Assembly (NCBI GenBank): GCA_021780375.1 | Contig: JAJXYT010000020.1 | Coordinates: 1-34,552 of the forward strand | Reading direction: 5' to 3' | Origin: a bacterium | GTDB taxonomy: Bacteria > Verrucomicrobiota > Verrucomicrobiia > Limisphaerales > UBA11358 | DNA: 34,552 bases | In this document: positions 19,042-27,178 of the stretch, piece after piece | Numbering within the stretch: the first letter of the stretch is position 1 | How the letters are laid out: every line of letters starts with the position of its first letter | Notes under the pieces: generated by a model | Database searches by the model: none | What the model saw: only the letters and a program-made list of their open reading frames with translations | What the model was told of the DNA's origin: nothing | Made by a program: the position numbers and the translations under genes

Positions 19042-19927
19042 ATGAAAACACCCATCACCGCTGCTTCGACGACAGACTGTAATGGCCAACCGTTGCTGTT
19101 TGAAGACCTGGGTTGGCGCCAGGTCGTGGCTGATTTTTCCGGCGGGACGCTCTCCAGTGATGGCGGCGCTGGAAAAGATCGTGCCAGCGATCCGGAAACG
19201 CTGCCGTTGGGCGCGGATCATTATCCGTGGGGACAGCGGCTTTTGCCGGGAGGAGATCCTGGCCTGGTGTGAGCGGCAAGCCCCCGTGGTTTATTATTGT
19301 CTGGGTCTGGCGAAGAACTCCGTCCTGGTGGAGCGCTTGGGGCCGGCGCTGGCGGATGCGCAGGCCCGCCGGTGTCTGACCGGGACGGCTGGCGCCCGGG
19401 TGTTCACCGGATTTGAATATCAGACGGTGAAAAGTTGGAGCCGCTCGCGCCGGGTGACCGGCAAGGCGGAAGTGACGGCCCAAGGACCGAACCCGCGCTT
19501 CCTGGTGACCAACCTGCCGGCGGCGGGGTTTGAAACTGAGGCGGATCAAACCCGGTTTGCGCCGGCGCGCCTCTACGAGCACCTCTATTGCCCGCGCGGC
19601 GAGATGGGGAATGTGCTCAAGCAGCAAGTGTTGGATTTGCAGGCTGACCGGCTAAGCACCCGGCATCAGGGCAGCAACCAACTGCGTTTGTGGCTGGCCA
19701 CCTTTGCCGATCTCCTGCTGGAGCGGGTGCGGACCTTGGGGCTGGCGGGAACGGATCGGGCGCAGGCGACGGCGGGCAGCATCCGGCTCAAGTTATTGAA
19801 AGTGGCGGGTCAGGTGCGCGTGAGTGTGCGCCGCGTGCAGGTGCAGTTGAGCAGCGCCTGTCCGCTGGCGTCGCTGTTCCGGCGCTGCCATCAGCGGCTC
19901 ATGAGGCTCTCCCACGCCAGCGGTTGA
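19042..19927 (+). mobile_element. IS1380-family transposase gene with large internal deletion
   Basis: The N-terminal part starts at ATG 19042 and includes LLFEDLGWRQVVADFSGG and SSDGGA, typical of IS1380 transposases. At about 19161-19172 the sequence jumps, with a frame change, to LEKIVPAIRKRCRW and IIIRGDSGFCREEI, which lies far downstream in intact members. The rest continues to the normal C-terminal region (LRLWLATFADLLLERVR). Some 140-160 residues, including catalytic acidic positions, are gone, so the element is dead. The junction is GGCGGCGCTGG-like, suggesting loss between short GGC-rich matches. I could not identify convincing terminal inverted repeats in 18970-19041 or 19928-20100. 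Confidence 0.8.
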
Positions 19928-20112: not shown

Positions 20113-20128
20113 TTAGCGGTTTAGCTAA
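20113..20128. promoter_or_regulatory. Inverted repeat at the ArsR start, candidate operator
   Basis: TTAGC (20113-20117) and GCTAA (20124-20128) form a perfect inverted repeat with a 6-base spacer, ending two bases before the ATG at 20131. ArsR-family repressors bind such A/T-rich dyads over their own promoters and leave when they bind their ligand. This would regulate the whole redox operon downstream. Confidence 0.5.
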
Positions 20129-20130
20129 TT

Positions 20131-20451
20131 ATGCAAGCAGTTGCCATGACTGCCATCGCTCAAGCCGAATACAAGGCGCAAGCCCGCATCCTCAAGGCGC
20201 TCGCGCATCCGACCCGCCTGTTCATCGTGGACGAACTGTCGCGCGGCGAACGCTGCGTGTGCGAACTCACCGACCTGATCGGCGTCGAGATGCCGACGGT
20301 GTCGCGGCATTTGAGCCAGCTCAAAAACGCCGGTCTGCTGGAGGATCAAAAGCGCGGGTTGCGGGTGTTCTACCGGCTGCGCGTGTCGTGCGTGCCGAAT
20401 TTTTTCAAGTGCATCGAGGCGGTGCAAACGGGCCGGGCCAGTTGCGAATGA
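20131..20451 (+). CDS. ArsR/SmtB-family transcriptional repressor
   Basis: The 106-residue protein has the family winged helix: LKALAHPTRLFIVDEL, then PTVSRHLSQLKNAGLLEDQKRGLRVFYRL. The sensing-helix sequence RCVCEL places C42 and C44 like two of the three cysteines of the arsenite site in classical ArsR, and further cysteines occur at 87, 94 and 105. It could therefore respond to soft metals, metalloids or thiol-reactive compounds. ATG 20131 or ATG 20146 may be the start. It heads a run of closely spaced genes for lipoyl, DGC, OsmC and thioredoxin proteins and probably controls them through the adjacent inverted repeat. The inducer is unknown. Confidence 0.9.
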   Translation: MQAVAMTAIAQAEYKAQARILKALAHPTRLFIVDELSRGERCVCELTDLIGVEMPTVSRHLSQLKNAGLLEDQKRGLRVFYRLRVSCVPNFFKCIEAVQTGRASCE

Positions 20452-20464
20452 AAGGAACTTTGCC

Positions 20465-20812
20465 ATGAACCAAAATCAAATCATCACCGTGAAAATCCTC
20501 GACCTGCCGGGCGCGGGCGGCGGTTGCGCGTGCAGCGACTTGACGCGCACGCCGGAATACGCCGCCGCCGTTCAACAGAAAATCGCCGAGTTGAAAACCG
20601 CCCTGGCAGCCGGGTTTCCGGGCCGCGCGTTGGTCGAATACGTGGACTTGCGCAACAACCAAATGGAGTTGGCCGGCGAGCACGGCCAATTGCTGGCCAC
20701 GCGCAAGTATCCCCCGCCGCTGGTCGTGGTGGGCGGCGAGGCGAAATTCGCCGGCTCGATTCTCGTTCCCAAAATCGTCAAGGCGGTTGGCGAGGCGCTG
20801 AACAACCGTTAA
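20465..20812 (+). CDS. Small CxC protein, possibly thioredoxin-fold
   Basis: This 115-residue soluble protein follows the regulator by 13 bases and has a good ribosome site (AAGGAA). I do not recognise a named family. It has a glycine-rich stretch ending in GGGCACSD, with cysteines 21 and 23 forming a CxC pair after an ILDLPG strand. Near the end is YPPPLVVVGGEAKFAG, reminiscent of the cis-proline strand of thioredoxin-like folds, and then a C-terminal helix. The alternating strand and helix pattern would fit that fold. In a cluster of thiol-redox proteins, a disulfide-exchange or metal-binding role is a reasonable guess, no more. Confidence 0.7.
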   Translation: MNQNQIITVKILDLPGAGGGCACSDLTRTPEYAAAVQQKIAELKTALAAGFPGRALVEYVDLRNNQMELAGEHGQLLATRKYPPPLVVVGGEAKFAGSILVPKIVKAVGEALNNR

Positions 20813-20823
20813 ATCGCGTAAAA

Positions 20824-21048
20824 ATGAACGACACCTTTCCCATCACCGACATCCTGACCGTAGCGCAGGTTTCCAACCTGCTGTATTGCCGACTTCCAGT
20901 CGGCAGGGCGTCGGAACAGCCAGCGCGCCGAAAGTTAGCGGCGATTGCGGATTGCAAATCCGCGATACCGCAGACTTGGAAGTCTGCGCTACGGCCGGCG
21001 ACCCACGCCGGTTTTAAGGAAACTCAACAAACGAAAGACCAGCCATGA
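20824..21048 (+). CDS. Small ORF made mostly of a 133-bp repeat (doubtful gene)
   Basis: ATG 20824 opens a 74-codon frame. Its first 12 codons (MNDTFPITDIL) precede the repeat, the middle is the repeat, and the tail ends at a TGA overlapping the ATG of the lipoyl-carrier gene. The repeat-encoded part (VAQVSNLLYCRLPVG) is the kind of peptide such repeats produce in many genomes, so the protein is probably meaningless. The frame may still matter by delivering ribosomes to the downstream start. Confidence 0.25.
   Translation: MNDTFPITDILTVAQVSNLLYCRLPVGRASEQPARRKLAAIADCKSAIPQTWKSALRPATHAGFKETQQTKDQP
20860..20992. repeat. 133-bp palindromic repeat, copy 1
   Basis: The element begins GTAGCGCAGG and ends CTGCGCTAC, a 9-base terminal inverted repeat. 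Inside it is a chain of small hairpins: AGGTTTCCAACCT, CCGACTTCCAGTCGG, GCGGATTGCAAATCCGC and CAGACTTGGAAGTCTG. A second copy of exactly the same length lies at 21901-22033. It separates the CxC gene from the lipoyl gene. Confidence 0.88.
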
Positions 21049-21506
21049 GCGAATTTCTCGAACTCACTTACGACAAGTTCATCTTCCGCGTGAAGACGGA
21101 CTGCCTTTACACTCGCGACGATTATTGGGCGCACATCGAAGGCAACGTGGCCACCGTGGGCGTCGCCGATTTCCGGCAGAAGTCCAACGGCGACGTGGCG
21201 TTTCTGGAAACCGTCGCGCCCGGCACGGCCGCCAAACAAGGTGCGGCACTTGGCATCATTGAGACCATCAAGACCACGGCGGACATCCTTTCGCCCGTCA
21301 CCGGCAAGGTGGTGGAAGCAAACCCGGAGTTGGTGGCCAGCCCGTTCCTGATCAACGAAGATCCTTACGGCAAGGGCTGGATTTACCGGATTGAACTGAC
21401 CGACGCGCAAGGCGGCCGGCCCGGTCTGCTCAAGGCGGAAGTTTATTTTGAACTGCTCAAACAAAAAGTCGCCTTGGAGGCGAAGAAACTTTATGGACAA
21501 AGCTAA
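21045..21506 (+). CDS. GcvH-like lipoyl carrier protein
   Basis: The 153-residue protein resembles the H protein of the glycine cleavage system. Residues 30-125 contain HIEGNVATVGVADFRQ, and the lipoylation hairpin GIIETIKTTADILSPVTGKV has K76 at the lipoyl position (compare ESVKAASD in GcvH). The region NPELVASPFLINEDPYGKGW also fits. No glycine-cleavage P or T protein is nearby, so this is probably a dedicated lipoyl arm for another reaction, as in the LbpA proteins of sulfur-oxidising systems. The dihydrolipoamide dehydrogenase four genes downstream would reduce it. It shares 14 bases with the next gene. No lipoate ligase or synthase is in the window. Confidence 0.85.
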   Translation: MSEFLELTYDKFIFRVKTDCLYTRDDYWAHIEGNVATVGVADFRQKSNGDVAFLETVAPGTAAKQGAALGIIETIKTTADILSPVTGKVVEANPELVASPFLINEDPYGKGWIYRIELTDAQGGRPGLLKAEVYFELLKQKVALEAKKLYGQS

Positions 21507-22053
21507 AAAGGTCGTGGTGCTGCCGTGCAGCGGCATTGGCAAAGCCTACGGCGCGCTGGCCCGCGAGACCGCTTATGAACTGGCCGAGCGCGTCCGTCCT
21601 GGCGTGGCCACGCTGACTTGCCTGCCGCTTTTGGTCATCAATGATCCGGCGGCGCGGAAATTGGTCACGGACCACCCGGTCATTGCCATTGACGGTTGTC
21701 CCAAGGAGTGCGCCAGGAAAAGCGTCGAGGCGCTCGGCAAGAAACCGGCGGTGTCGTATCAAGCCATCCGGTTTTACACCGCGCACAAAGACCTCAAGCC
21801 CGAAGGCGTGGCGCAGTTGAACGAGGCCGGCCAAAAACTGGCGAGAATCGCGGCGGATGAATTGGCGGCAACCGTGGACCGGCTGGCCGCAGAGGAAGCG
21901 GTAGCGCAGGTTTCCAAACCTGCTGGATCGCCGACTTCCAGTCGGCCGGGCGTCGGAGCAACCAGCACGTCGGAAGTCTGCGGCGATTGCGGATTGGAAA
22001 TCAGCGACACAGCAGACTCGAAGTCTGCGCTGCCCGCGAAGGAGGAATTATGA
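21493..22053 (+). CDS. DGC-domain (putative zinc-binding) protein 1, C-terminus extended by a repeat
   Basis: ATG 21493 follows GGAGG at 21476-21480. The core of about 135 residues shows the DGC-family pattern: C12 in VVLPCSGIGKAYG, C43 in LTCLPLLVIN, and IDGCPKECARK with D67-G68-C69 and C73. The last 50 or so codons (from VAQVSKPAG) are read through an inserted 133-bp repeat and replace the original end. Proteins of this family are annotated as putative zinc-binding and have no firmly known function. Their four conserved cysteines suggest metal or thiol chemistry. The TGA overlaps the start of a paralogue (ATGA). Its position between the lipoyl carrier and OsmC suggests a shared redox task. 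Confidence 0.82.
   Translation: MDKAKKVVVLPCSGIGKAYGALARETAYELAERVRPGVATLTCLPLLVINDPAARKLVTDHPVIAIDGCPKECARKSVEALGKKPAVSYQAIRFYTAHKDLKPEGVAQLNEAGQKLARIAADELAATVDRLAAEEAVAQVSKPAGSPTSSRPGVGATSTSEVCGDCGLEISDTADSKSALPAKEEL
21901..22033. repeat. 133-bp palindromic repeat, copy 2 (inside a coding frame)
   Basis: This copy starts GTAGCGCAGG and ends CTGCGCTGC, with one change in the terminal repeat. It has the same length and hairpin order as copy 1, and most internal differences lie in or near the loops. It is fused in frame to the 3' end of the first DGC gene and stops 8 bases before the GGAGG ribosome site of the next gene. Confidence 0.88.
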
Positions 22054-22463
22054 ACGAAATCCAAGTCACCAAAGTCGGCATCGTTTCTTGCAGCGGCGAG
22101 GAAATTCCCGATGGCACTTTGTGCCGGATCGCCTGCCGCAAGGTGCTCGACGCGTTGCGGCCCGGCGAGACCGTCACGATCTGCCTGCCGCTGTTCATCG
22201 CGGGCGGCGAGGAGGAACGGTCATTCGCCGCCAAATATCCGACCATCACCGTGGACGGCTGCGAAAAATTGTGCACGGCCAAAGCCACGGAAATGCTTTC
22301 CGGCAAACCCGGCAAATCGCTGCTCGTCCCGGAAATTTTGAAACGCCACGGTCTGCCCGCGCCGACCAAGCTCCGGCATTTTGGATTGGAAGAAGAACCC
22401 GCCGTCAAAGCGGTCGCCGAGGAAATCACCAAGGCCGTGGACGAGGTGTTGGCCGAAGCCTGA
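22050..22463 (+). CDS. DGC-domain (putative zinc-binding) protein 2
   Basis: ATG 22050 is preceded by GGAGGA at 22041-22046 and gives 137 residues. The cysteine pattern parallels the first DGC protein: C14 in GIVSCSGEEIPDG, C45 in VTICLPLFIAGG, and VDGCEKLCTAKA with D69-G70-C71 and C75. C25 and C29 (TLCRIACRK) form an extra CxxxC pair not found in copy 1. The two genes are probably an ancient duplication with divergence, perhaps forming a heteromer. Function is unknown. The cysteine set suggests Zn or Fe-S binding or persulfide handling. The OsmC gene begins 7 bases after the stop. Confidence 0.82.
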   Translation: MNEIQVTKVGIVSCSGEEIPDGTLCRIACRKVLDALRPGETVTICLPLFIAGGEEERSFAAKYPTITVDGCEKLCTAKATEMLSGKPGKSLLVPEILKRHGLPAPTKLRHFGLEEEPAVKAVAEEITKAVDEVLAEA

Positions 22464-22469
22464 AAATCT

Positions 22470-22913
22470 ATGCCGACATATAAAAACAAAGTGGAATGGC
22501 GTGGCGGCCATCTCGGTCACACCTGGACCAGCAACGGCGTCGAACTGCCGTTCTCCGCGCCGCCGGCCTTGCACGGAATGCCCAACGTGCTGACACCCGA
22601 AGACGCTTTTGTCGCGTCGTCGAACACCTGTTATTTTCTGATGGTCGTCTGGGCCGCCGAACGCTTCAAACTGGACGTGGGGTCGCTGGAAATGGACGCC
22701 GAGGGCGAGGTGGAGGAATTTCTCGACCGCACCTCGTGGTTCAAGCAGGTGACCATCCGCCCGCGCATCGTCGTTCGCGGCAAATCGCGCGAAGTGGTGC
22801 AGCGCGCCCTGGACATGGCCATGAAGTATTCGACCATCAACCAATCCTTCAAGTGCAAGGTCGTCATCGTCCCGGACATCATCATTCAACCCGCCAACGC
22901 GAAGGAGTCGTGA
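22470..22913 (+). CDS. OsmC/Ohr-family peroxidase-like protein
   Basis: The 147-residue protein has the OsmC fold signature MLTPEDAFVASSNTC-like (here NVLTPEDAFVASSNTCYF), with peroxidatic C54 at the start of the central helix. In standard members the second cysteine lies in a CPxSN-type motif. Here that position reads KYSTINQSFKCKV, so serine 121 takes its place and the only other cysteine is C129, eight residues on. OsmC and Ohr proteins reduce organic hydroperoxides, and Ohr is known to draw electrons from lipoylated proteins and dihydrolipoamide dehydrogenase, both encoded beside it here. The stop overlaps the next start (TGATG). Confidence 0.88.
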   Translation: MPTYKNKVEWRGGHLGHTWTSNGVELPFSAPPALHGMPNVLTPEDAFVASSNTCYFLMVVWAAERFKLDVGSLEMDAEGEVEEFLDRTSWFKQVTIRPRIVVRGKSREVVQRALDMAMKYSTINQSFKCKVVIVPDIIIQPANAKES

Positions 22914-24370
22914 TGCCGGAAATTTTTGACATGGCGTTTTTGGGCGGCGGGCCGGCCGGGTATCAGGGCGCGATTCGCGCGGCGCAACTCGGCGCGAAGG
23001 TCGCCGTGGTGGAGGAAAAATTCTTGGGCGGCGTCTGCCTCAATTGGGGTTGCATCCCGACAAAAACCGTGCGCGCCTCCGCCGAGGCCGGACGCACCCT
23101 GCGCCGCGCCCGCGAATTCGGATTTCAGCCCGTCGAAGCGCGACCGGACCTGGCCGCCATCATCGCCCGCAAAGACCGCGTCGTGAACACGCTGCGCGGC
23201 AGCATCGGACGGCTGTTTCAGGCGCATCAAATCACGCTGATCGAAGGACGCGGCCGGTTGACGGCAACCGGAGGAGTCGAGGTGGAGCACAACCACCAGC
23301 AGACCTTGGTTCATGCGAACAAGGTCGTTGTCGCCACCGGCTCGCGTCCGGCAGGGTTGCCGATTTTTCCAAAGCATCCACGAATTTTCCTGGCCGACGA
23401 GGCGCTGAATCTGAATTTCCTGCCCAAACATTTGTTGGTTGTGGGCGGGGGCAGTGTGGGCGTCGAGATGGCTGCCATCTTCCGCGAATTGGGCGCGGAA
23501 GTGACATTGGTGGAAGCGTTGGAACGGCTGCTTCCCAACGAAGACGCCGAAATGGCCGACTACCTGCAAGGCGTGCTCAAGCGGCGAAAAGTGAAAATCC
23601 TCTGCTCGGCTCGAATTACCGCCGTCAGTGGCGGCGACGCCCTCGTCGCCCCGGCTTCACCGTTCAAAGTAATGCTGGCCGACGGAACGGAACTGAATCC
23701 CGATACCATCATCCTCGCCGTAGGCAGAAAACCAAACACGGAGGGACTCGGCTTGGCCGAGGCCGGTGTCGAATTGAGCAGCGGCCGGATCATGGTGGAC
23801 GAACATCTGCAAACCAATCGTCCCGGTCTCTATGCCGCCGGCGATGTGGTTGGCCGCTGGTCGCTGGCGCACGTCGCATTTGCCGAAGGCATCTGCGCTG
23901 CCGAACACGCTTTGGGACGTAACAGCGCGATGGATTATCGCGTCGTGCCCCGGTGCGTTTTTACGATTCCAGAATACGCCGCCGTGGGCGTCTCCGAAGC
24001 CGAGGCGCAAAAGCAGCAGCCGGTCAAAGTGGCGCGGTTTCTGTTCAAATCGCTCGGCATGGGCCAGGCCACCGGCGAGCTGGAGGGCCTGGTCAAAATC
24101 ATCGCCCACGCGCCGACCGATCAGATTCTGGGCGCGCACATTGTCGGGCCGCACGCGGCGGAGATGATTGCCGAGCTCGCGCTGGCGATGCGCGCCGATT
24201 TGCCCAGCCGCGTGATCATGGAGACGATTCATTCGCATCCGACCTTTTCCGAAGCCGTGTTGGAAGTCGCACAGGCTTTGCAAGGCCAGGCGATTCATCA
24301 ACCGCCAGCTATTCGCGCGACTTCAAATTCGGTCATACGCCAATTTCAAACTGAACCAAGCAATTTATGA
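22913..24370 (+). CDS. lpdA: Dihydrolipoamide dehydrogenase (class I flavin disulfide reductase)
   Basis: The 485-residue enzyme has the FAD-binding GGGPAGYQGAIRAAQLG, the redox disulfide C42/C47 in GGVCLNWGCIPTK, the NAD-binding LVVGGGSVGVEMA, the second FAD motif YAAGDVVGRWSLAH, and the C-terminal HSHPTFSEAV with the catalytic histidine-glutamate pair. It oxidises dihydrolipoyl groups with NAD, or runs the other way to reduce lipoyl carriers. No 2-oxoacid dehydrogenase genes are close, so its likely partner is the GcvH-like carrier in the same operon. The C-terminal 25 residues after QGQAIHQPP are a loose extension. Start and stop both overlap neighbours. Confidence 0.92.
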   Translation: MPEIFDMAFLGGGPAGYQGAIRAAQLGAKVAVVEEKFLGGVCLNWGCIPTKTVRASAEAGRTLRRAREFGFQPVEARPDLAAIIARKDRVVNTLRGSIGRLFQAHQITLIEGRGRLTATGGVEVEHNHQQTLVHANKVVVATGSRPAGLPIFPKHPRIFLADEALNLNFLPKHLLVVGGGSVGVEMAAIFRELGAEVTLVEALERLLPNEDAEMADYLQGVLKRRKVKILCSARITAVSGGDALVAPASPFKVMLADGTELNPDTIILAVGRKPNTEGLGLAEAGVELSSGRIMVDEHLQTNRPGLYAAGDVVGRWSLAHVAFAEGICAAEHALGRNSAMDYRVVPRCVFTIPEYAAVGVSEAEAQKQQPVKVARFLFKSLGMGQATGELEGLVKIIAHAPTDQILGAHIVGPHAAEMIAELALAMRADLPSRVIMETIHSHPTFSEAVLEVAQALQGQAIHQPPAIRATSNSVIRQFQTEPSNL

Positions 24371-24774
24371 AAACTATGAAAAACGAAACTGAAACAACCA
24401 AACCGGCGAACGCGCAAAAGCCGACCGTGGAAGAAGTGTTCGGCATGATGCGGAAAATGATGGGTTCCGTGCCCACGGCCATCGAACAAGCCGTCAAGGT
24501 GGACGAGGGACTGCTCCATGAGCACCTGCGTTCGCGCGGCTACGCCATGCCGCCGGGCGGCGCGTTGGATGAGGAAACCCGCACGCTGATTTATCTCGCC
24601 GCCGCGCTGGCCGCCAGCAGCCAGGCGTGCATCCAGGCGATGGCGAACAAGGCAAAAATGCAAAACATTCCGTCGGCGAAAATCATCGAAACCGTTCACA
24701 TCGTGCGATTCGCGCTGGCGACGAAAGTCATCGGCGAAGCCGAGCCGGTGTTCGCGGCGCTGGCGAAAACGTGA
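24367..24774 (+). CDS. Carboxymuconolactone decarboxylase/AhpD-like protein with degenerate active site
   Basis: The 135-residue helical protein matches the CMD/AhpD fold: LDEETRTLIYLAAALAASSQACIQAMANKAK, a loop, then SAKIIETVHIVRFALATKV (written in parts; the motif spans residues 67-118). AhpD uses CxxC with a histidine four residues after the second cysteine. Here the first cysteine is serine 85, only C88 remains, and the histidine position is methionine 92. Classical disulfide cycling is therefore impossible, although a one-cysteine mechanism is conceivable. In mycobacteria AhpD links lipoyl proteins to a peroxidase, a striking parallel to this operon. ATG overlaps the Lpd stop; ATG 24376 is an alternative. 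Confidence 0.8.
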   Translation: MKTMKNETETTKPANAQKPTVEEVFGMMRKMMGSVPTAIEQAVKVDEGLLHEHLRSRGYAMPPGGALDEETRTLIYLAAALAASSQACIQAMANKAKMQNIPSAKIIETVHIVRFALATKVIGEAEPVFAALAKT

Positions 24775-24872
24775 TGAGGCAAGACGATGAACTCCGCGCG
24801 CCGTTTCAAATTGCTGCCGGTGCCATCCTTTGCGGCGTGCTCCGGCATTGCACGCCGGCGCGCGGCTTGTAA
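24774..24872 (+). CDS. Possible 32-residue coupled peptide
   Basis: An ATG at 24774 overlaps the preceding stop (TGATG) and opens MRQDDELRAPFQIAAGAILC, ending HCTPARGL at TAA 24870-24872. I recognise no family. Two cysteines and one histidine occur. It may be a genuine small protein or merely a chance frame in the 147-base gap before the thioredoxin gene. Confidence 0.25.
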   Translation: MRQDDELRAPFQIAAGAILCGVLRHCTPARGL

Positions 24873-24921
24873 CTTTTCCAATCTTCATGGCTCTGTTCAT
24901 AACCGATGGAATCGAACGCGT

Positions 24922-25236
24922 ATGAACCGATTAAAAACAATCCGCGCGGAAGATTTCACCGCCGAGGTGCTCAACGCACCCACGCCGGTGGTGGTTCTGT
25001 TTGACGCCGCAGATTGCGCCCCGTGCGACGCCCTCAAGCCGGTGATCCGCGCCGTGAGCCGCCGCTTTCGGGGCGAGGCCGCGTTTGTGAGCGTGGACGT
25101 GTCGGAGTCGCCGGACCTGGCGCGGCGTTATGGGATCAGCCTGCCGCCGACGCCGGGGCTTTTTTATGGCGGTGTTTTGCGGGATATGTTCCAGCCGTCC
25201 GCGCGCGGTGAAATATCACTTTCTTCAATCGCATGA
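24922..25236 (+). CDS. Thioredoxin-family protein
   Basis: From ATG 24922 the protein has 104 residues, the normal size of thioredoxin. The strand PVVVLFDAADCAPCDALKPV carries the active-site pair C32/C35 as CAPC instead of the usual CGPC, and aspartate 31 replaces the preceding tryptophan. SLPPTPGLFYGG holds the cis-proline. No signal peptide is present, so it acts in the cytoplasm. As the thiol-disulfide exchanger of the operon it may reduce the CxC, DGC or OsmC proteins. The longer upstream frame contains no recognisable domain, which is why the later ATG was chosen. The stop overlaps the CBM48 gene (ATGA). Confidence 0.87.
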   Translation: MNRLKTIRAEDFTAEVLNAPTPVVVLFDAADCAPCDALKPVIRAVSRRFRGEAAFVSVDVSESPDLARRYGISLPPTPGLFYGGVLRDMFQPSARGEISLSSIA

Positions 25237-26191: not shown

Positions 26192-27178
26192 ATGAGCCAA
26201 ATCCTTTCCTTCCTGGCCGAACACGGCGGCGCGTTATTGTTTGCGGTGGTTTTGGTCGAGCAACTGGGTTTGCCGCTGCCGGCCCTGCCGTGGCTGCTGG
26301 CGGCCGGGGCGCTGGCGGCGAATGGCCAGCTTCACCCGCTGCCGGCGCTGGCGGGCGTCGTCGCGGCGTGTCTGATCGCGGACGCGGTCTGGTTCGGGCT
26401 GGGCCGGCGCGGCGGTGCCCGGGTGTTGAAAATGCTTTGCCGCGTTTCGTTGCAACCGGACTCGTGCGTCCGGCGGACGCATGACTTGTATGACCGCTAC
26501 CGGATGCGGGGCGTGGTCGCGGCGAAGTTTCTCCCCGGCTTGAGCACCGTCATCCCGTCCCTGGCCGGAATGTCGGGCGTTCGTTGGCGGCGGTTCCTTT
26601 TTTTCGATGCCATCGGTTCGTTGCTTTACGGCGGCAGTTTCCTGTTGTTGGGCGTCCTGTTCCGGCATCAGTTGGATCATCTTCTGTCCCTGCTGGTCCG
26701 TCTCGGGAATGGCGGCCTGGCGTTGGTCGCCGCTGCGGTCGCGGGGTATGTTGGTCTTAAATTTTTCCAACGGCAGCGCCTGCTCTGGCGGTTGCGCGTG
26801 GCGCGGATCACGGTGGAAGAGGTGCGCCGCCGCCAGTTGGCCGGCGAACCGTTGGCCATCCTCGACCTGCGGGCGCGGGCCGAACTGGAGCGGGAGCCGC
26901 AGATCATTCCCGGGGCGCGCCACGCCGGCCGGGAAGAGTTGGAACGTCATGCGCACGGGCTGCCGCGCGACCACGACATCATTGTTTATTGTGCCTGTCC
27001 CAACGAAGTCAGCAGCGCCAGCCTGGCCCTGCGGCTCCATCGCCAGGGTTTCACCCGCGTCCGGCCCCTGCGGGGAGGAATCGCCGCCTGGCGCGAGCGG
27101 GGCTATCCCACCGAGCAGTGGCCGGCTGCGGAAACCTCGGCGGGCCTCAGCCTGGCAACAACGACCAAAGCCGCATGA
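26192..27178 (+). CDS. DedA/VTT membrane protein fused to a rhodanese domain
   Basis: The 328-residue protein has a DedA (SNARE-associated/VTT) half. Membrane segments start near residue 12, and the family loop AKFLPGLSTVIPSLAGMSG is followed by RWRRFLFFDAIGSLLYG. A last helix around residues 175-190 leads to a cytoplasmic rhodanese domain at about 205-310, with AILDLRARAELE and the active-site loop VYCACPNEVSSA holding C267. DedA proteins act in lipid-carrier flipping and membrane homeostasis; rhodaneses move sulfane sulfur through a cysteine persulfide. The fusion brings sulfur transfer to the membrane, beside a thiol-redox operon. The stop overlaps the glgP start (ATGA). Confidence 0.88.
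   Translation: MSQILSFLAEHGGALLFAVVLVEQLGLPLPALPWLLAAGALAANGQLHPLPALAGVVAACLIADAVWFGLGRRGGARVLKMLCRVSLQPDSCVRRTHDLYDRYRMRGVVAAKFLPGLSTVIPSLAGMSGVRWRRFLFFDAIGSLLYGGSFLLLGVLFRHQLDHLLSLLVRLGNGGLALVAAAVAGYVGLKFFQRQRLLWRLRVARITVEEVRRRQLAGEPLAILDLRARAELEREPQIIPGARHAGREELERHAHGLPRDHDIIVYCACPNEVSSASLALRLHRQGFTRVRPLRGGIAAWRERGYPTEQWPAAETSAGLSLATTTKAA

Follow-up and report, generated by a model that had tools for sequence, protein, structure and literature searches.

We analysed a contig of 34,552 nucleotides (JAJXYT010000020.1; the whole stretch is called the window below) from a verrucomicrobial genome of 4.0 Mb that is 84.7% complete. Between positions 20131 and 25236 nine genes lie on the forward strand, for an ArsR regulator, a CxC protein, a GcvH-like predicted lipoyl carrier (GcvHL), two proteins of the DGC family, an OsmC-family protein, a dihydrolipoyl dehydrogenase (Lpd), an AhpD-like protein and a thioredoxin (Table 1). 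An earlier reading of the same DNA, the original prediction, had named all nine and taken them for a lipoyl-driven peroxidase module behind an ArsR-family regulator. The nine genes are verified (eight of them by profile scans, the exception being the CxC gene), and the regulator in front scores above the cut-off of its metalloregulator family. The function has to be revised: the conserved part of the operon, which we call the cassette, likely holds or chemically alters arsenic rather than removing peroxides.

Table 1. Genes and other features of the operon (window positions).
Feature	Positions	Strand	Support and remarks
8-base palindrome TTAGCTAA, candidate operator	20121..20128		before ArsR start; found by eye
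ArsR/SmtB-family regulator, 106 aa	20131..20451	+	HTH_5 59 bits; metalloregulator NF033788 91.3 bits (cut-off 55)
CxC protein, predicted thioredoxin fold, DUF1462/YuzD-related	20465..20812	+	
Repeat element in CxC-GcvHL gap	20860..21030		tblastn match 20874-20975; limits by eye
GcvH-like predicted lipoyl carrier (GcvHL), K76	21045..21506	+	GCV_H (PF01597) 105 bits (cut-off 22)
DGC1 (PF08859)	21493..22053	+	59 bits (cut-off 27); Cys12, Cys69, Cys73
DGC2 (PF08859)	22050..22463	+	53 bits (cut-off 27); Cys14, Cys45, Cys71, Cys75
OsmC-family protein	22470..22913	+	38 bits (cut-off 27.5)
Dihydrolipoyl dehydrogenase (Lpd)	22913..24370	+	TIGR01350 480.6 bits (cut-off 408.8); CxxxxC active site by eye
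AhpD/CMD-family protein, TTHA0727 type, single Cys88	24367..24774	+	CMD 30 bits (cut-off 23)
Thioredoxin, CAPC	24922..25236	+	open reading frame from 24787; ATG at 24922 likelier start, chosen by eye

The genes had been described as, for the most part, tightly packed. This holds from the GcvH-like to the AhpD-like gene, where neighbours overlap or are 6 bases apart, but not for the 232-base gap between the CxC and GcvH-like genes. The ArsR and CxC genes are separated by 13 bases, the AhpD-like and thioredoxin genes by 12, or by 147 with the later thioredoxin start. A scan for promoters and terminators gave nothing better than chance level.

Profile scan and alignment confirm the GcvH-like carrier with its K76. 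All 23 aligned GcvHL sequences have this lipoyl lysine and E73 (all residue alignments reported here are without the proteins of L210-L212, loci that were found later). We reject the idea that GcvHL is an ordinary glycine cleavage H protein: although it has the PF01597 domain, it misses the curated GcvH scores, with 95.4 bits for TIGR00527 (cut-off 115.85) and 112.4 bits for NF002270 (cut-off 117). A separate ordinary GcvH is encoded elsewhere in the host genome, which makes GcvHL its second GcvH, and the Lpd of the operon is one of two above the family cut-off. Hence, the carrier and the reductase of the operon are additional copies, and the claim that an ArsR-linked module brings its own carrier and its own Lpd stands, for what is a conserved unit. 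We infer that K76 carries a lipoyl group. Lipoylation of the predicted carrier is possible because the same genome encodes a LipA over cut-off, and it is supported by LplA-type ligase-like genes in three of the 25 cassette loci described below (L042, L045, L188). The ligase-like gene of L042 has two Pfam domains over cut-off and lies below the NCBIfam cut-offs; the other two were found by tblastn. On another contig of the host genome (C73; L196:5416-10303) ArsR, ArsC and CcdA-like genes lie within 5 kb of the ordinary GcvH gene, and LipA is encoded on the same contig.

The cassette recurs. Counting the window, 25 loci have GcvHL, DGC1 and DGC2. They were drawn from samples of genomes and from a genome-contig scan with GcvHL, in which the matches listed are mostly ordinary GcvH; two further stretches (L191, L192) are excluded from the counts because their genomes were already represented. 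All 18 loci that bear OsmC, from three phyla of which one is archaeal, have the order GcvHL-DGC1-DGC2-OsmC on one strand. (In L033 another OsmC homologue lies upstream; the apparent 'DGC1' match ahead of the window's GcvHL is the repeat of Table 1.) The comparison of neighbourhoods that the original prediction had proposed for the GcvH-like, DGC and OsmC genes thus gives a fixed order and not random adjacency.

One could argue that unrelated thiol genes have come to lie together by chance. The window contig by itself is compatible with this, and a repeat has invaded the operon. The conservation of the order in other loci, however, takes the core arrangement far beyond chance, and the 25 loci, the fixed order in 18 of them and the gene fusions described below all speak against coincidence. 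So does the correlated divergence of the four core proteins, whose pairwise identities correlate with Mantel r of 0.72-0.85 (0 of 2000 label permutations; 17 of the 18 OsmC-bearing loci), although shared ancestry by itself also yields such a correlation. For the four-gene core GcvHL-DGC1-DGC2-OsmC a chance neighbourhood is refuted, and as an account of the whole we give it practically no credence.

The cassette is also rare and scattered. In the sample from the window's phylum, GcvHL matches 6 of 387 genomes at E 1e-28, four of which carry the cassette; in the sample from its order, it matches 5 of 320 at 1e-29, all five with the cassette. For the phylum of the Acidobacteria locus L033 the figure is 13 of 347 at 1e-29, with DGC1 and DGC2 adjoining in 11, and for that of the Bathyarchaeota locus L038 it is 29 of 300 at 1e-28, three with DGC genes inside short loci and the rest without. 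The Nitrospirota sample gave 0 of 245, at a limit (E 1e-31) stricter than the one used elsewhere, and had no positive control. Desulfobacterota, Riflebacteria and others have GcvHL homologues that are about 60-66% identical (best 120 of 371 matches). Viral contigs gave no match; plasmids gave none for DGC2 and for OsmC just 7 records, all distant (26-32% identity). Among the same-genus genomes sampled only one, G021, has the cassette, and it is 43-50% identical to that of the window, whereas the cassettes of G176 and G123, from another family of the phylum, are 60-75% identical. That the closer relative has the less similar cassette suggests horizontal transfer. Downstream of the cassette, a P5CR/F420-oxidoreductase-like protein is encoded in 6 of the 25 loci (L033:12011-12793, L123, L180, L186, L211, L212).

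The cassette comes in two versions. Seven loci (L042, L045, L188, L189, L190, L211, L212) have no full OsmC; in its place this version, version B, holds an HdrA-N-like protein, a 4Fe-4S ferredoxin and an extra DGC. The HdrA-N-like protein has 125-129 residues (L042, L211) and is weakly similar to the N-terminal part of HdrA, with 23.6 bits in L211 and, in L042, E 0.013 against solved HdrA and no NCBIfam match. It is present in all seven version B loci and in none of the 18 OsmC loci. The ferredoxin likewise accompanies 7 of 7; one of the 18 has distant copies of it, several kb off. The extra DGC is fused to GcvHL in five of the seven (and in the excluded L191), and both domains were over cut-off in each of the two fusions scanned; in the archaeal loci it is free, once in L189 and three times in L190. 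An Lpd gene is found in the window, L123, L211 and L212. L211 is version B inside an operon of the window's type: GcvHL no longer precedes DGC1, and a tail of 24 residues is all that is left of OsmC, immediately ahead of Lpd. This remnant marks a natural swap from OsmC to version B in an operon closely related to that of the window. Most simply read, two sets would be interchangeable in what they do for a shared DGC1-DGC2 core: the carrier with OsmC, and the carrier with ferredoxin, extra DGC and the HdrA-N-like protein.

These observations bear on the peroxidase module of the original prediction. According to this explanation, Lpd reduces GcvHL, which in turn reduces OsmC and the AhpD-like protein, and these two remove hydroperoxides, perhaps during arsenic stress. 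In its favour, the OsmC, Lpd, AhpD-like and thioredoxin genes adjoin each other, and all 19 OsmC sequences aligned, among them the upstream homologue of L033, retain the reactive Cys54 and Glu44. The available part of PMC10332631 moreover cites Ohr as a lipoyl-dependent peroxidase (Cussiol 2010), and an OsmC/glycine decarboxylase system of Trichomonas as well. Other residues do not fit. In an alignment to the Ohr structure 1zb8, itself weak (E 0.006), Cys54 falls on C61, Glu44 on E51, His14 on R19 and Ser121 on C125. We take R19 and C125 to be the catalytic Arg and the resolving Cys of Ohr; the cassette proteins have His at the former position in 17 of 19 sequences and Ser at the latter in 18 of 19. 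The second Cys of the window's OsmC, C129, is in none of the other aligned sequences, and 17 of the 19 have a Cys at position 75, where the window has Met. The active site of the AhpD peroxidase is a CxxC, but the AhpD-like protein has one Cys and no CxxC in 4 of 4 sequences, and its best solved relative is TTHA0727. It is encoded in only 5 of the 25 loci (its homologues are 73-76% identical in L042, L045 and L188, and 91% in L211). Furthermore, 7 of the 25 cassettes do without a full OsmC and have other redox genes instead, and the neighbouring genes found are arsenic genes.

Because of the OsmC residues and the single-Cys AhpD-like protein, the usual peroxidase chemistry is not indicated; together with the swap of OsmC, they weaken the peroxidase reading to the point where we consider it improbable. 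Peroxidase activity of a one-Cys kind may still occur. The idea of a carrier dedicated to its own peroxidase is also less novel than first thought, given the H-protein/OsmC example from Trichomonas cited in the same part of PMC10332631. What does hold is that the gene combination itself is without a description in the open-licence literature searched.

To our knowledge, the DGC family (PF08859) has no known function. Both DGC1 and DGC2 score above its curated cut-off and have the Cys set. The four Cys of DGC2 are kept in at least 27 of 28 aligned rows, and the three of DGC1 in 26-27 of 29 rows, one partial row and the repeat row among them. A structural model of DGC2 (pLDDT 88) has a predicted alpha/beta Rossmann-like fold. 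Searched with Foldseek it gave no match at E 0.001 (best 3.8e-3), VIA returned Z of at most 8.6, a middling value for a common alpha/beta arrangement, and the DGC2 profile found nothing under E 0.7 among the sequences of solved structures. In L033 (11239-11548) and 13 other loci DGC2 is extended at its C-terminus by about 100 residues, which include a CxC pair and match no Pfam family; DGC2 of the window is without this extension.

The original prediction had suggested in passing that DGC proteins might handle a metalloid, and this aside has gained strong support from the neighbourhood. A gene for the arsenite pump ACR3 lies within the fetched stretch of 17 of the 25 cassette loci (up to about 10 kb per side, often shorter; the window in full). 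Thirteen of these pumps were scanned and are over the curated cut-off, another two are incomplete where the stretch ends, and the last two (L119, L182) were identified by tblastn only. The 25 loci further include, also by tblastn, ArsC in 9, ArsM in 5, ArsG in 4, ArsA in 3, ArsD in 2 and ArsR in 23, and ArsE-like thioredoxins are found in 17. Control GcvH loci look different. Among 75 from the genome-contig scan, mostly of other phyla than the window's, there is no ACR3 (Fisher 1.6e-13) and one ArsM-like match, and 20 from the window's phylum have none of these ars genes (ACR3, Fisher 1.1e-6). With the cassette loci also restricted to this phylum, ACR3 is found in 4 of 8, against 0 of the 20 controls (Fisher p 0.003). 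The arsenic link of the cassette is strong.

For the window's type of operon the best link is L211, the nearest relative found (CxC 89%, DGC1 and DGC2 90%, Lpd 93% and AhpD 91% identical). Upstream of its CxC gene lie ArsR (69%) at about 6 kb and ACR3 (79%, partial at the edge) at about 7 kb, with an RND pump gene between. Two loci of the window's phylum have hgcA and hgcB near the cassette and ACR3: L118:5002-6370 (in G176) and L119:1797-3128 (in G123). HgcA scores 401 bits in L118 and 386 bits in L119, against a cut-off of 275. The HgcB of L119 scores above its cut-off, and in L118 tblastn gives an HgcB match of 79%. A tblastn search of the stretches from the remaining 22 loci gave no hgcA, and the window's genome, at 84.7% completeness, gave no HgcA match. 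We therefore reject mercury methylation as the role of the window's operon.

Which chemistry could such a cassette perform? Dihydrolipoyl groups bind trivalent arsenic, As(III), tightly, and lipoyl arms are its textbook target. We propose, at close to even confidence, that the cassette is a lipoyl-dithiol relay, whose predicted lipoyl arm would capture trivalent arsenic and hand it between cysteine-rich partners. The reduced arm and the DGC cysteines would hold As(III) or a trivalent organoarsenical. The DGC cysteines would receive the arsenic from the arm and deliver it to ACR3, to ArsM or to another exit, that is, to efflux or methylation. In the version with OsmC, Lpd with NADH, OsmC and thioredoxin could hold the arm in its reduced state or power a redox reaction of the arsenic; in version B the ferredoxin and the HdrA-N-like protein could do the same. 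ArsR would sense the arsenic. We favour the relay because ACR3 is present in 17 of 25 loci, K76 is invariant, DGC and carrier are found fused, LipA is present, L211 ties the window's operon type to arsenic genes, the core proteins diverge together and dithiols bind As(III).

Several points weigh against the relay. The redox genes (Lpd, OsmC, ferredoxin) exceed the needs of a pure carrier. The window contig itself gave no tblastn match to arsenite-pump and arsenate-reductase references and has ArsR as its sole ars gene; the ACR3 of its genome is fragmented at the end of another contig (C186), beside ArsC. In eight of the 25 loci, of which the window is one, the stretch shows neither an ars enzyme nor a pump, and while L123, L186 and L190 are short, others such as L045 and L212 are not. 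The ordinary GcvH of the window's genome is also within 5 kb of ArsR-ArsC-CcdA. Moreover, the loci are phylogenetically non-independent, and the reference ars pieces were taken from cassette loci themselves. Since two loci add hgcAB, the substrate might be another metal. Finally, a neighbourhood indicates a pathway and not a chemistry.

Alternatively, the cassette could be an arsenic redox enzyme. The lipoyl arm would then be an electron carrier, fed by Lpd and NADH or by ferredoxin and the HdrA-N-like protein, and the enzyme would reduce a pentavalent or methylated arsenical or oxidise As(III); its catalytic partner would be OsmC or the extra DGC. The arsenic neighbourhood fits this explanation as well as it fits the relay. 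It is also the redox part that varies, with OsmC in 18 loci versus the HdrA-N-like protein, ferredoxin and extra DGC in 7; no OsmC locus has the HdrA-N-like protein, and L211 retains its OsmC remnant before Lpd. On the other hand, ArsC is already encoded in 9 of the 25 loci and ArsE-like thioredoxins in 17, and DGC has no significant structural match. We regard a redox enzyme as unlikely, if by no means far-fetched.

Taken together with its distribution, the relay would amount to an undescribed lipoic-acid-dependent arsenic system of bacteria and archaea, in which the dedicated carrier and two DGC proteins catch trivalent arsenic with their dithiols and turn it over, and which exists in two interchangeable versions, one thiol- and NADH-linked with OsmC and Lpd, the other driven by ferredoxin with the HdrA-like protein. 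We put this forward tentatively, as somewhat short of an even chance. If true, it would be the first lipoyl-dependent arsenic handling that we know of, and a cofactor that is classically poisoned by arsenic would become the tool for handling it. The DGC family would gain a job, and the short list of lipoyl-dependent systems would grow. With two versions available, and with one natural swap between them in an operon close to the window's, the role of OsmC can be tested directly.

The ArsR of the window has Cys42 and Cys44 within the stretch 'RCVCEL', and Cys87, Cys94 and Cys105 further downstream. The ArsR proteins that occur with the cassette fall into two kinds, distinguished by an ELCVC-type stretch or by a PC(V/I)xxxFxC-like stretch close to the C-terminus; aligned with 27 other ArsR-like sequences from cassette loci, the window's ArsR combines features of both. 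The operator claimed for it exists as a palindrome before the ArsR start. Its status as an operator is unproven, because the palindrome is just 8 bases long, compared with 6 for other inverted repeats ahead of the start. Just upstream of the ArsR gene (19082-19927) an open reading frame resembles, by eye, a transposase remnant, and downstream of the operon (26192-27178) a DedA-like membrane part is fused to a rhodanese domain, both under the NCBIfam cut-offs.

The CxC protein had no Pfam or NCBIfam match in profile scans. Of its 53 homologues one carries the Pfam label DUF1462/YuzD. The top Foldseek matches of its model (pLDDT 85) are 1xg8 (SA0789) and 3mwh (ArsD), each at E 9.4e-4, and with VIA the ArsD match ties with many thioredoxins; its profile found nothing convincing among the sequences of solved structures (best E 0.085). 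Going by the model, the protein would fit as a further thiol partner, and the fold alone reveals no function. Nineteen of the 53 homologues seemingly share their source assembly with a GcvHL homologue (45 of the best 120 of 371 GcvHL matches were compared), which suggests that the two genes travel together. A second copy of the repeat lies at 21880-22050 (limits by eye), within the 3' end of DGC1. It is read in frame and adds about 48 residues as a C-terminal tail, so that the repeat seems to have been absorbed into a protein end.

How does the cassette compare with known systems? With ars islands (ACR3, ArsC, ArsM, ArsR) it shares the proximity of ACR3, in 17 of 25 loci, and the ArsR in front, whereas the window contig carries just ArsR. 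We know of no ars gene that encodes a lipoyl carrier, a DGC or an OsmC protein. Genes of ars are found near hgcAB (PMC7438021 and PMC10349881, in the parts available), and the latter cites an arsenic-responsive ArsR acting on hgcAB. L118 and L119 share this arrangement, in contrast to the window's genome and the other 22 loci, and the cassette offers a handle on the reported link. The main texts of the two papers have 0 occurrences of lipoyl (searched as 'lipo' in PMC7438021), OsmC and glycine cleavage, and hgcA and OsmC occur together in no paper among the matches listed from the open-licence literature. We also considered the selenoprotein 'Tso/SAO' systems, which have weak NCBIfam hits, and rejected them; terms for GcvH and DGC are absent from the available part of PMC13188914.

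With the lipoyl-dependent Ohr/OsmC peroxidase that works with Lpd, and with the OsmC and incomplete glycine decarboxylase of Trichomonas, the cassette shares the company of an OsmC-family protein, a lipoyl carrier and Lpd. It differs in the change at the Ohr Arg and resolving-Cys positions, in its DGC proteins and arsenic context, and in that 7 of 25 loci have no full OsmC. In mycobacteria a peroxidase of AhpD, a lipoyl protein and Lpd exists. An AhpD-family protein and Lpd are common to both, but the cassette's protein is of the single-Cys TTHA0727 type and found in 5 of 25 loci.

The last comparison is with LbpA of the sHdr system, a GcvH-like dedicated lipoyl carrier with a linked ligase (PMC6067878; further work on LbpA in PMC10332631; both in the parts available). 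One could imagine that the cassette's arm, too, bears sulfane sulfur and makes or breaks thioarsenicals or persulfides, under an ArsR that senses sulfane sulfur; ArsR-type repressors of this kind are described in the available part of PMC12423496, and the HdrA-N-like protein of version B (weak, 23.6 bits) points the same way. LbpA has two conserved Cys, one near each end, some archaeal LbpA excepted (PMC6067878, same part). Neither is conserved in the 23 GcvHL sequences, and we reject GcvHL as an LbpA. General family scans revealed no shdr gene among the operon genes, with no search aimed at shdr made, and the recurrent company of the cassette is arsenic genes. We consider a sulfur carrier, like the peroxidase, improbable. 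The likeness to sHdr-LbpA is nonetheless considerable: both have a dedicated GcvH-like carrier with an invariant lipoyl lysine (K76 in 23 of 23), an ArsR-type regulator, a ligase-like gene (in 3 of 25 loci) and an HdrA-related piece (in version B). The differences are that GcvHL has no conserved Cys column and that the cassette, which we prefer to read as a lipoyl-dithiol relay, has arsenic neighbours and DGC proteins.

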